Source: Spartobacteria bacterium (GTDB lineage Bacteria; Verrucomicrobiota; Verrucomicrobiia; Chthoniobacterales; UBA10450). From it: a stretch of DNA of 64,000 nt. The DNA lies in the NCBI GenBank assembly GCA_003167555.1, contig PMSN01000009.1, positions 124,001 to 188,000 of the forward strand. The letters are read 5' to 3'. The notes beneath the pieces were generated by a model. That model searched no databases, was not told the DNA's origin, and saw only the letters and a program-made list of their open reading frames with translations. Each line of letters starts with the position of its first letter. Position 1 is the stretch's first letter. The translations under genes were made by a program, and so were the position numbers. Below are positions 20,824 through 52,437 of the stretch, piece after piece.

Positions 20824-20830
20824 TCGAGCT

Positions 20831-20872
20831 AACGTCCAACGTCCAACGTCCAACGTCCAACGCTGAACGGAT
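20831..20872. repeat. AACGTCC heptamer array, upstream edge of xseA
   Basis: Four perfect AACGTCC units (20831-20858) and two diverged ones (AACGCTG, AACGGAT). Seven bases separate the array from the xseA ATG on the minus strand, so the repeat occupies the ribosome-binding region. Confidence 0.93.
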
Positions 20873-20874
20873 CC

Positions 20875-20943
20875 TGTAGCGGCGGTCTCAGACCGCCGAA
20901 CGATTTCACGCAACGGGCTCGGCGGTCAGAGACCGCCGCTACA
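20875..20943. repeat. Inverted repeat, TGTAGCGGCGGTC family, copy 1
   Basis: Arms at 20875-20899 and 20919-20943 pair nearly perfectly. Each arm is itself a hairpin (GGCGGTCTCAGACCGCC). The distal arm holds the stop codon of ruvB (TAG, 20939-20941 on the minus strand). A second copy is at 59794-59864. Confidence 0.92.
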
Positions 20944-21937
20944 GAAGCTCCGCCTGCGCGCCGGCGGGCGGCTTGAGCCCGAGCTTGCGATACGCGTTCG
21001 GCATCGCGACGCGGCCTTGCGGCGTTCGCTTAATGTAACCTTCCATGATCAAATACGGCTCGTTCACTTCCTCGAGTGTCCCCGCTTCCTCGCCGACCGC
21101 GACCGCGAGCGAGCTCAGGCCAACCGGGCCGCCGTTGAATTTATGGATCAACGTTTCGATGATCCGCTTGTCCCATTGATCGAAACCGTCGCGGTCGATC
21201 TCGAGCATGGTGAGCGCGCGGTCGGCCAACTCAGCGGTGATTTTTCCATCCGCTTTCACCTGCACGTAATCGCGCACCCAGCGAAGGAGGTTGTTCGCGG
21301 TCCGCGGCGTGCCCCGAGTGCGCGACGCGATCTCCGCCGCGCCGGCGCTGTCGATTTCCACCCCGAGCAACCCGGCGCTGCGCGTGATGATTTTGTGCAT
21401 CTCCTCCGCGCTGTAGTAATCGAGCCGCGCGGTCATTCCGAAGCGCGATCGCAACGGCGCGCTCACCATCCCCGCCCGCGTGGTCGCGCCGATGAGGGTG
21501 AACTTCGGCAATGGCAGCCGCAGACTCCGCGCCTGCGGCCCTTGATCGATGATGATGTCGAGCCGGTAATCCTCCATCGCGGGATAAAGATATTCTTCGA
21601 TCGTCGGCTGGAGCCGATGGATTTCGTCGATGAAAAGCACGTCGCCTCTTTCGAGACTCGTCAGCAACCCGGCCAGCTCCCCGGCCTTTTCGATCACCGG
21701 GCCGCTCGTGTTCTTCACGTTCACGCCCATCGCGTTTGCGATGATGTTGGCCAGCGTCGTTTTTCCCAAGCCGGGCGGGCCGCTCAGTAGGATATGCTCG
21801 AGCACGTCGCCGCGCTTTTTTGCCGCGGCCACAAGGAGCTCGAGACGTTCGCACACTTTCACCTGGCCGGTGAACTCGCTGAACATCGGCGGCCGCAGCG
21901 AAACTTCGAAAGCGGGATCAGGCTCGGGCGGTTTCAT
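20939..21937 (-). CDS. ruvB: Holliday junction branch migration ATPase RuvB
   Basis: Hexameric AAA+ motor that drives Holliday-junction branch migration with RuvA. 332 residues. Walker A is [13 protein letters not shown], Walker B is [10 protein letters not shown], sensor I is [10 protein letters not shown], and the C-terminal winged helix includes [24 protein letters not shown]. RuvA and RuvC are not nearby. The last codons (GAG CTT CTG TAG) run into a TGTAGCGGCGG repeat that supplies the stop. It follows the RsbW-like gene by seven bases. Confidence 0.97.
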
Positions 21938-49219: not shown

Positions 49220-50196
49220 GCCTTCCGCAGCGATCGACGCGATGCGAGCGTGAGCGCGGTCGAGGAAATGATTTTGCGAACTTCCGTGCGCGAAACCTTT
49301 ATTTTGCGCTCGAAGACTTCAGGGCCCGCTTCGCGCACGAGCGAGAGCGTGCGCGCGCCAATCAAAGCCGGAAGCGCGGTCGCAAAACGGATGCGCCGCG
49401 GGCGAATCGCGCACGCGTAATCGATCCCGGAGGCCAGGCCACGCTCCGCTTTCTCGAGCCACGGGCGCAGGATTGATTCTGCGCGTTTTGGGTTGCGCAA
49501 AATTTCCTCGGGCGTCAGGCCTAACGAGTGGAGTTCGCTCGCGGGAAGATAACACCGGCCATCCCGCAAATCGGCGCCGAGATCGCGCAGGATGTTGATG
49601 AGCTGCAATCCCTGGCCGTATTGCACGCCCAACTCCCGCATCTCCGCTTCGGGCCGGTCGCTGAAATCTTTCACGTGCGCGAAACAGAGCCGGGTCCAAA
49701 ATTTCCCGACGCATCCGGCCACGAGGTAAGTGTATTCGTCGAGATCCGTTGCGGTCGGAAGCGCCTGCATTTCCGCGCCGCTGAATCGCTCCAGGTCGAG
49801 CATCTGCCCTCGATTGATTTTCTGCAGAACAGCGCGCACCTCGCTTCGATCGCGCTCTTCCAGGGAATTAAGCCAGGCGAGCGCAGCGGGCAGCGCATCG
49901 ATCAACGCGCGCTCGGCCGCGTTGCTTTGCAAAGGCGCGAACGAATCGCGAACCGCCTCCGCTGTTTCAGCCGTGCCTTGAATCGCGTCGACTAGACTTC
50001 GCAGCGCGTCGGTGCGCACTTTTGCCGGGACGCCTGCCGTGTCCGCGATCGTATCCGTCGCGCGAGCCAGGAGGTAGGCCAGCGAAAGCGGATCGCGCAA
50101 GGCTCGAGGCAGAGCGCGCAGCGAAAGATAAAACGAGCGCGAAACCGCTCGCAGAATCGGCCCGCGCAAATGCTCGAAATCTCGCACCGTCTTCAC
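49207..50196 (-). CDS. Squalene/phytoene synthase family protein
   Basis: 329 residues. Head-to-head prenyl synthase marks: SRSFYLSLRALPRALRDPLSLAYLLARATDTIADT (first Asp-rich motif DTIAD), YLVAGCVGKFWTRL, and the second Asp motif QYGQGLQLINILRDLGADLRDGRCYLP. Product may be squalene (hopanoid precursor) or phytoene; no cyclase or desaturase is nearby to decide. Overlaps the DUF362 stop by four bases. Confidence 0.9.
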   Translation of the reverse strand: MKTVRDFEHLRGPILRAVSRSFYLSLRALPRALRDPLSLAYLLARATDTIADTAGVPAKVRTDALRSLVDAIQGTAETAEAVRDSFAPLQSNAAERALIDALPAALAWLNSLEERDRSEVRAVLQKINRGQMLDLERFSGAEMQALPTATDLDEYTYLVAGCVGKFWTRLCFAHVKDFSDRPEAEMRELGVQYGQGLQLINILRDLGADLRDGRCYLPASELHSLGLTPEEILRNPKRAESILRPWLEKAERGLASGIDYACAIRPRRIRFATALPALIGARTLSLVREAGPEVFERKIKVSRTEVRKIISSTALTLASRRSLRKAYRK

Positions 50197-51218
50197 CGGT
50201 GGACGTTGCGCACTTCAATGGCATCGGCGTTCCCGATCCCGAGCTGCGCCGCGATTTGCACGTGCGCGGCGAGCGGCGCAATCGGCGGAAATCTTCCCTT
50301 CACGCGCCACTCCTCGATTTGCCGGACGGCGAGCGCATCGATCGCGACCGGGTCCTTGCTCGCGAGCAACGTGGCGTGATGCACGGCGTAGTTGGGTTGC
50401 GATTGCGGGCCGCCGGCGTATTCCGCGATCAGCCCGTCCATGATGTTGAGAACGACCTTCTGGCCAAGCAACGGATTGCGATAAAGCTCGGCGATCCCCG
50501 GTGCGCCGTAGCGCGAGGCAAAGCGACGCCAGTTGTCGATGTTCGGAAGCGTCATGTTGTAAAGGCAGCCGGCGAGTCCGCTCGTCGAGCTGTCACTCAT
50601 CACGGGGACGTTAATGATTTTCGTAACCTCGCTGGAAACGATCCGCGCAAAGTGGCTGTCGTCGCTGGTGATTTCCTGGTCGGACTGCAGCGGGATCATG
50701 CCCCGGTCCGAGCGAAATTCGTAGTCGCCCCAGATGAGTCTCCCCGCGAGAGGCGCGGTGAAGATCACCTTCGGATCGTAGCCATCGCGCGGCGCGATCG
50801 ATTTCAGCTGATAGCCCTCCGCGTTGATCCGATAGCCGGCGTCCTTGATTCCATCCAGGCTCCGGTCCCATACGACAATGCTGCCACGAGGATGTCCCGC
50901 GGCGACCAGTCCGTCCACGATCGCGTTGACCACGTCGCGATGGGTGGTGAAAAGTTCGCCGCCGACCGCGCAAATCTTGATGCCGATCCGGTCGTTAGGC
51001 GAAACGAGCGAGCCCCAGGCGCGCGCCAAATCCGGCTGGCCGGTGACGGAGAGGACGAGACGATTCACCATCGCGCGGACGACGGCCGGATCTGTCCGGT
51101 ATTCCTTGATCGCGGCGGAATCCTGCACGGAATAAACGATCGAAGGCGCGGCGGGCCGCGGAGTTTGCGCGGCAGCGGACGCCGCCAAAAAAAAGAAAGC
51201 TAAAATTCGAATGGGCAA
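50193..51218 (-). CDS. DUF362 domain exported protein
   Basis: 341 residues from TTG 51218 with a signal peptide (ILAFFFLAASAAAQ). DUF362 marks: VVRAMVNRLVLSVTGQPDLARAWGSLVSPNDRIGIKICAVGG, TTHRDVVNAIVDGLVAAGHPRGSIVVWDRSL, and SSEVTKIINVPVMSDSSTSGLAGCLYNMT. Often a chaperone-like or ferredoxin-linked family, role unproved. Four-base overlap with the squalene/phytoene synthase gene suggests one operon. Only 25 bp separate its start from hemW. Confidence 0.85.
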   Translation of the reverse strand: MPIRILAFFFLAASAAAQTPRPAAPSIVYSVQDSAAIKEYRTDPAVVRAMVNRLVLSVTGQPDLARAWGSLVSPNDRIGIKICAVGGELFTTHRDVVNAIVDGLVAAGHPRGSIVVWDRSLDGIKDAGYRINAEGYQLKSIAPRDGYDPKVIFTAPLAGRLIWGDYEFRSDRGMIPLQSDQEITSDDSHFARIVSSEVTKIINVPVMSDSSTSGLAGCLYNMTLPNIDNWRRFASRYGAPGIAELYRNPLLGQKVVLNIMDGLIAEYAGGPQSQPNYAVHHATLLASKDPVAIDALAVRQIEEWRVKGRFPPIAPLAAHVQIAAQLGIGNADAIEVRNVHR

Positions 51219-51243
51219 GATAGTGAGCGGTGGAAGAGAGGTT

Positions 51244-52437
51244 ATGAGCGATTCAATGATTCACAACGGGATTGAACCCGCCAGGAAGGAAAACGTTCAA
51301 CGCCCAACGCTCAACGTCCAACGCCCAACTCCAGAAACCACTGTCGCGCACATCTACGTTCACATCCCTTTCTGCGCGCGGATTTGTCTGTACTGCGCAT
51401 TTTACAAGGAGCGAGCTGATAGCTCGCAGACGCAACGATTTTGCGAGGCGCTCCTGCGAGAATTGGATGAAACGCGCGGTGGAAATTTGCTGGTGCCTGA
51501 GACGATCTTCATCGGAGGCGGGACGCCCACGGCGCTGACCACGGCGCAGCTGGAGTTTCTTCTCGGCGGTTTTCGTGAGCGTCTCGATTTGTCGGCGCTG
51601 CGAGAGTGGACCGTGGAAGCGAACCCGGGCAGCGTTTCGTCCCACAAAGCGGCCGTGCTCCGAAACGCGGGAGTGAACCGGATCAGTCTCGGCGTCCAAT
51701 CCTGGGACGATGAATTGCTGAAGCTCCTCGGCCGGGAGCACAACGCCGCGCAGGCGGAAGCGTCGTTTCATCTTTTGCGCGAGGCCGGTTTCACGAACCT
51801 GAACATCGACTTGATGTTCGGTCTGCCCGGCCAAACGCTCGCGCAATGGGAAGAGACCTTGAGAAAGACCATCGCGCTCGGGCCGGAACACATCTCGACT
51901 TATTGTCTCACGTACGAGGAGGACACGGAATTCTTTCTGCGCCATGCGCGCGGCGAATTCCGCGAAGACCCCGAATCGGACGCACAGTTTCTCGAGGCCG
52001 CGATGCAGATGCTGGAGGGCGCCGGTTTTCAGCACTACGAGATTTCAAATTACGCGCGGCCCGGATTCGCCTCGGCGCATAACCGCGCTTATTGGGCGGG
52101 CGAAGATTACGTCGGCATCGGCCCGAGCGCCTTCTCCACCGTCGGCCTGCAACGCTTGCAAAACGTTTGCGATTACCGCGCCTATTCCGATCGCGTCCTG
52201 GCCCGCGAGTCCGCCGTAGCGACGACAGAAATCCTGACCCCTGAGATGAAGCGGGCGGAAAGAATCGCCCTCGCGTTACGGACCCGGGACGGAATTTTCT
52301 CCAGCGAACTCGAGTCCTGGCCAACCGAGAGCCGCGAGTTCATCGACCTCGGATTGCTGCGCGAAGTAAACGGCAATTTCATTCTCACCCCTCGCGGCAA
52401 ACTTCTCGCCGACTCCGTCGCCGAAGCATTCGTTTAG
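51244..52437 (+). CDS. hemW: HemW-type radical SAM protein (coproporphyrinogen III oxidase-like)
   Basis: About 397 residues from ATG 51244 (preceded by GGAAGAG). Radical SAM motif Cys44-x3-Cys48-x2-Cys51 (HIPFCARICLYCAFYKE), GGGTPTALTTAQLEFLLG, WTVEANPGSV, GVNRISLGVQSWDDELLKLLGREHNAAQA, and NLNIDLMFGLPGQT are typical. HemW moves heme and is often annotated as HemN. The first 33 residues are encoded by a heptamer repeat array (NVQRPT twice) and look non-native; the conserved protein begins near VAHIYVHIPFC. No start codon lies between the array and that point. Confidence 0.9.
   Translation: MSDSMIHNGIEPARKENVQRPTLNVQRPTPETTVAHIYVHIPFCARICLYCAFYKERADSSQTQRFCEALLRELDETRGGNLLVPETIFIGGGTPTALTTAQLEFLLGGFRERLDLSALREWTVEANPGSVSSHKAAVLRNAGVNRISLGVQSWDDELLKLLGREHNAAQAEASFHLLREAGFTNLNIDLMFGLPGQTLAQWEETLRKTIALGPEHISTYCLTYEEDTEFFLRHARGEFREDPESDAQFLEAAMQMLEGAGFQHYEISNYARPGFASAHNRAYWAGEDYVGIGPSAFSTVGLQRLQNVCDYRAYSDRVLARESAVATTEILTPEMKRAERIALALRTRDGIFSSELESWPTESREFIDLGLLREVNGNFILTPRGKLLADSVAEAFV
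51292..51333. repeat. AACGYCC heptamer array inside the hemW 5' end
   Basis: Six tandem units: AACGTTC, AACGCCC, AACGCTC, AACGTCC, AACGCCC, AACTCCA. Six times seven is 42 bp, so the reading frame is kept, and the array is translated as NVQRPTLNVQRPTP. Same family as the arrays at ispD and xseA. Confidence 0.93.

Follow-up and report, generated by a model that had tools for sequence, protein, structure and literature searches.

The 5' end of hemW in a Chthoniobacterales genome contains a short dispersed heptamer repeat, very probably read through as a disordered leader

The window, by which we mean the whole 64,000-nucleotide stretch of DNA analysed here, contains a gene for the radical SAM heme chaperone HemW and, in the 5' part of this gene, a tandem array of heptamers. 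The predicted protein scored 292.3 bits against the HemW equivalog TIGR00539 (cut-off 205.4) and also matched PF04055, and the cysteines of its radical SAM CxxxCxxC motif, HIPFCARICLYC, are invariant across 32 aligned relatives. The features of the locus are as follows.

51244 to 52437, + strand: hemW coding sequence, radical SAM heme chaperone HemW, 397 aa, counted from the likeliest start, ATG 51244
51238 to 51270, + strand: conserved upstream start block GAGGTTATGAGCGATTCAATGATTCACAACGGG with ATG 51244, recognised by comparison among relatives
51244 to 51333, + strand: leader of ~30 residues 5' of the radical SAM core, almost certainly translated, delimited by frame comparison and by pLDDT <50 for residues 1-30
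51284 to 51337, + strand: complete dispersed heptamer element, with purine left border GGAAGGAA, five AACGYYC units, AACTCCA and right border GAAA, the borders being conserved over 49 listed copies, which include a few arrays counted twice, read on the other strand
51292 to 51333, + strand: array as reported earlier, five units and a degenerate sixth, read as NVQRPTLNVQRPTP
50193 to 51218, - strand: DUF362 gene (PF04015), divergent, starting at a TTG 25 bp from hemW ATG 51244 and having a signal-peptide-like N-terminus

Since the DUF362 and hemW start codons (51218-51244) lie just 25 bp apart, at least one promoter would have to lie inside the coding region of the other gene. Four start codons are in frame with hemW 5' of the array: ATG 51211, GTG 51223, ATG 51244 and ATG 51256. 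The third is the ATG of the conserved block and is preceded by GGAAGAGAGG. Between the array and the conserved HIPFC region, in-frame ATG, GTG and TTG codons are all absent, in agreement with an earlier note on this DNA.

The hemW array (51292-51326, + strand) consists of the five units AACGTTC, AACGCCC, AACGCTC, AACGTCC and AACGCCC, no two adjacent ones alike, followed by the degenerate sixth unit AACTCCA (51327-51333). The earlier note had described a bare tandem array of six units. The array is real and in frame with HemW, but only five of its units are full; the sixth is part of a conserved right border, so that the repeat is better described as a bounded element of ~54 bp. Two-unit matches with at most one mismatch numbered 13 in the window, where chance would give 0.59; in 100 shuffled sequences the number always stayed below 13. 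Further copies in the window lie at two intergenic sites.

2043 to 2131, no strand assigned: two further element copies, inverted relative to each other and together making a long hairpin, identified by copy comparison
20831 to 20865, + strand: further antisense copy, separated by 7 bp from a predicted gene start downstream, and followed by a pair of GTAG-type palindromic repeats

Searches of the whole genome (G000; 4.2 Mb in 29 contigs) revealed two-unit matches at ~45 separate sites, with the consensus GGAAGAA-(AACGYYC)5-AAYNNNRGAA, ~54 bases long with a purine-rich left border. When the stretches around the copies were compared, sequence conservation was found to be gone outside the two borders. 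Exactly five units were present in 32 of the 46 arrays counted, and 61 perfect four-unit matches were found versus a single six-unit match. In several cases two copies make up an inverted pair, which folds into a long hairpin. Three-unit matches were detected in 33 of 58 relatives, nearly all of the same family, most of whose genomes carry the element, while a reversed control gave almost no matches. Those of the relatives that carry names are Chthoniobacterales assemblies, some of them labelled Candidatus Udaeobacter. The five-unit length is not universal, as pure arrays reach 14 units in G009 and 12 in G049. Pure arrays in these two genomes (contigs C1, C2, C37 and C55 of G009, C153 and C158 of G049) are built of AACGTCG or AACGCCG, and some stand at contig ends.

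Dispersal of the element would be by insertion. A comparison with MITEs, which have terminal inverted repeats and target-site duplications, showed inverted pairs of the element and resolved no target-site duplication. At the site of the copy at 20831, G002 has a bare 21-bp gap, an empty site without a clear boundary, and the other congeners hold different dispersed repeats. As to a link with REP-associated transposases, genes for Y1_Tnp (PF01797) occur in nearly all genomes, with and without arrays, so their presence does not discriminate.

To determine whether the array lies within the translated part of hemW, its reading frame was compared among relatives. Outside the family, and in several family members, HemW starts at an ATG seven codons before HIPFC; in other members this proximal ATG is gone, and the conserved block TTTATGAGC...AATCACAAC is found upstream. 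The block was scored in every relative, and we checked whether the position of its ATG shared the frame of HIPFC. In relatives that had a good block and no ATG near HIPFC, the group to which the hemW of the window belongs, the block was in frame and stop-free in 26 of 26 (leader of 45 to 150 nt), versus only 3 of 12 with a good block and a proximal ATG (Fisher p = 1.3e-6, a value that ignores the kinship of the species, so that the true significance is lower, and that depends on a cut between good and poor blocks set by eye). Such a pattern would result if translation covered the leader in those relatives that need it and in no others. The distance from array to HIPFC in the nine array-bearing homologues measured was 66, 69 or 102 bases, in each case divisible by three, and G005 has a single in-frame start within 70 codons, located upstream of the array.

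Translation of the array was one of two alternatives left by the earlier note, and the frame test, together with distances divisible by three, indicates from sequence comparison that it almost certainly takes place. The earlier note's criterion of unit numbers in multiples of three is not exact, since it is the length of the entire insertion, flanks counted in, that has to be divisible by three. The likely start codon, judged by the same comparison, is ATG 51244. G003, G004 and G005 carry mutations in the upstream ATG itself, and for them a start still further upstream must be assumed. In the predicted structure of HemW, residues 1-30 have pLDDT <50 and most of the core >85, and the leader is thus probably disordered.

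The other alternative, that the array belongs to an untranslated leader and that HemW starts downstream of it at a non-canonical codon (e.g. ATC or GTC before HIPFC), is consistent with an ancestral start near HIPFC and with the little promoter room left by divergent starts 25 bp apart. An untranslated leader should, however, gather frame-breaking indels; none was found in the 26 relatives without a proximal ATG, whereas relatives with one do lose the frame. In addition, the congeners share no conserved alternative codon. On the frame comparison, such a start was judged unlikely, and we would be surprised to see it borne out.

Within the genus, the history of the array in hemW is patchy. Five units and a degenerate sixth are present in G000, G001, G005, G006 and G007, all of one genus, and in G033 of another, and the array is wholly absent from the hemW of three congeners (G002, G003 and G004). 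Species of the genus with and without the array are intermixed in the HemW tree, an arrangement compatible with one insertion or several, or with loss. The units have diverged among homologues by substitution, heavily in G001. No third-position bias was found among substitutions inside the array, and there is thus no sign of peptide conservation; by this comparison it seems to be the frame, not the peptide, that is kept. In other genera (L011, L012, L013 and L022) the HemW leader contains other repeat-like sequence (GTAGCGGC..., GTGTCGCC...), as if it often received dispersed repeats.

Seven further sense copies of the element were found at or inside long open frames. Family models identified three of these frames as CysS (cysteine-tRNA ligase), IspG and a UbiD-family menaquinone decarboxylase. 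The others, read from sequence alone, we take to be the carbamoyl-phosphate synthase large subunit (CarB), PrpB, an ABC transporter and a metal-binding protein; in the putative CarB, PrpB and ABC transporter the copies form C-terminal tails. In alignments, the loop that holds the copy in CysS, EENVQRPMSNVQRPIEE, varies in length; G001, G003, G004, G005 and G006 have homologous copies there, G009 has a decayed one, and more distant relatives have ordinary loops. The situation in the loop of UbiD is similar, with homologous or decayed copies in congeners and ordinary loops further out, and the IspG copy sits in a variable linker in the alignment.

All three reading frames are used among the in-frame copies. 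Read in the sense direction, AACGYYC units are free of stop trinucleotides in every frame, and since 7 leaves remainder 1 on division by 3, every sense frame of the repeats gives the same cyclic NVQRPTS-like heptapeptide. Insertions should therefore be easy to tolerate, and this heptamer arithmetic is likely the reason why all three frames are usable.

The occurrence of the same peptide in frame in several proteins could also suggest that NVQRPTS has a specific function in HemW, such as targeting or binding, and that the array owes its recruitment to the residues it encodes. The peptide is, however, missing from closely related species, is predicted to be disordered, and has accumulated substitutions without bias to silent positions, and the same leader is occupied by other repeat-like sequence in other genera. 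A specific function of the peptide is thus very improbable.

The earlier note had further considered hemW to be phase-variable, one-unit slippage shifting the frame and turning HemW off and on. The unit length is indeed not a multiple of three and the array lies inside the reading frame, a one-unit change does cause a frameshift, with out-of-frame stops ending translation after 27 or 67 further codons, and longer pure arrays of related units are known in G009 and G049. Compared between species, however, the array shows neither a varying unit number nor near-perfect tandem units, as would be expected of a contingency locus: the number is near constant in congeners and mostly five genome-wide, no one-unit change separates species, the units are imperfect, and adjacent ones are never identical in the hemW copy of the window. 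HemW is moreover a housekeeping protein and not a surface structure, and the same element lies inside CysS and further proteins that are presumably essential. Phase variation as the main reading was rejected on the unit numbers in congeners and genome-wide, and as an explanation of the array it has hardly any probability left.

We therefore favour, with good confidence, the explanation that the 5' end of hemW contains a copy of a short dispersed repeat of the family, which is read through from an upstream ATG as a disordered leader with its frame kept. In this lineage the ancestral start of hemW, the ATG seven codons before HIPFC, would have been lost. Translation would now begin at ATG 51244 and pass through the element, producing the disordered leader. 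Selection would hold the frame open without visibly holding the residues, and several housekeeping proteins would likewise tolerate sense in-frame copies, either in variable loops or at their ends. The role of the array in HemW would be that of a tolerated, probably disordered leader.

A broader reading can be proposed tentatively, and we hold it to be possible but somewhat doubtful: the five-heptamer element may be a mobile element of the family that has gone unrecognised and, being readable in any frame entered, may repeatedly give disordered loops and tails to essential proteins, while copies in fixed orientation upstream of starts hint at a regulatory or target-directed component. In 22 cases (L143, L151, L160, L163, L173 and others) an antisense copy precedes a predicted start codon by 4 to 57 nt (median 15), and apart from HemW no sense copy just upstream of a predicted start was counted in the same tally; these orientation counts come from a crude codon-usage gene finder, tallied by hand, and serve as a lead. 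The antisense copies put the pyrimidine-rich TTCTTCC where a Shine-Dalgarno sequence is expected.

To our knowledge, most documented cases of dispersed repeats inserted in frame in essential proteins of bacteria come from Rickettsia. Another, unrelated case from soil bacteria that live freely, with a simple arithmetic reason for the tolerance of insertions, would open to testing how new protein segments arise from repeats. For annotators it means that such leaders should be neither trimmed nor called phase-variable.

The Rickettsia palindromic elements (RPEs), which occur as in-frame insertions in coding sequences (Ogata et al. 2000, reviewed in PMC10969869), are palindromes of ~150 bp in ten families (PMC10969869). 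Both they and the heptamer element are short dispersed repeats lying in frame in unrelated metabolic genes, apparently translated, and also in intergenic regions; RPEs are often palindromic, and the heptamer element forms inverted pairs. In-frame insertion in unrelated protein-coding genes is seen for the heptamer element in HemW, CysS, UbiD, IspG and others. A ~150-bp palindrome is not, single copies being ~54-bp non-palindromic arrays of 5 x 7 bp, and the element also differs in its openness in every sense frame, which follows from arithmetic, and in belonging to another phylum. It acts like an RPE-type in-frame dispersed repeat without being a member of an RPE family, and RPEs are its closest precedent.

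Two further known systems are more distant. Intergenic heptamer repeats have been described as GGGAATC in Xanthomonas and GGGGA(C/T)T in Nostoc, where they are likewise dispersed, imperfect 7-bp tandem repeats, mostly intergenic and of widely differing length, those of Xanthomonas having 2 to 26 units and being G-quadruplex candidates (PMC4692102). The present element, in contrast, has the unit AACGYYC, mostly five units, conserved borders and several copies that appear to be translated. GTAG-tagged REP elements are abundant in the verrucomicrobium Opitutus terrae (PMC3733652); they too are small dispersed repeats, often in inverted pairs, and GTAG repeats adjoin several heptamer copies, but the heptamer element is an array without a GTAG tag and not a simple palindrome. 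The papers searched contained no report of the heptamer element and nothing on heptanucleotides in Verrucomicrobia, and neither NVQRPTSN nor any of three variants of this peptide was printed in them.

The intergenic copies in the window show some further features. The hairpin at 2043-2131 has a predicted energy of -65 kcal/mol over 116 nt and is followed by TTTTCTC, giving it a terminator-like appearance. At 20831-20944 the heptamer element is followed by the inverted pair of GTAG-type palindromic repeats, and CTGTAGC follows several other copies in the genome as well. In G007 (L182 and L188), the gap orthologous to window positions 20824-20954 contains a second heptamer family, AATGACG, arranged as an inverted pair.
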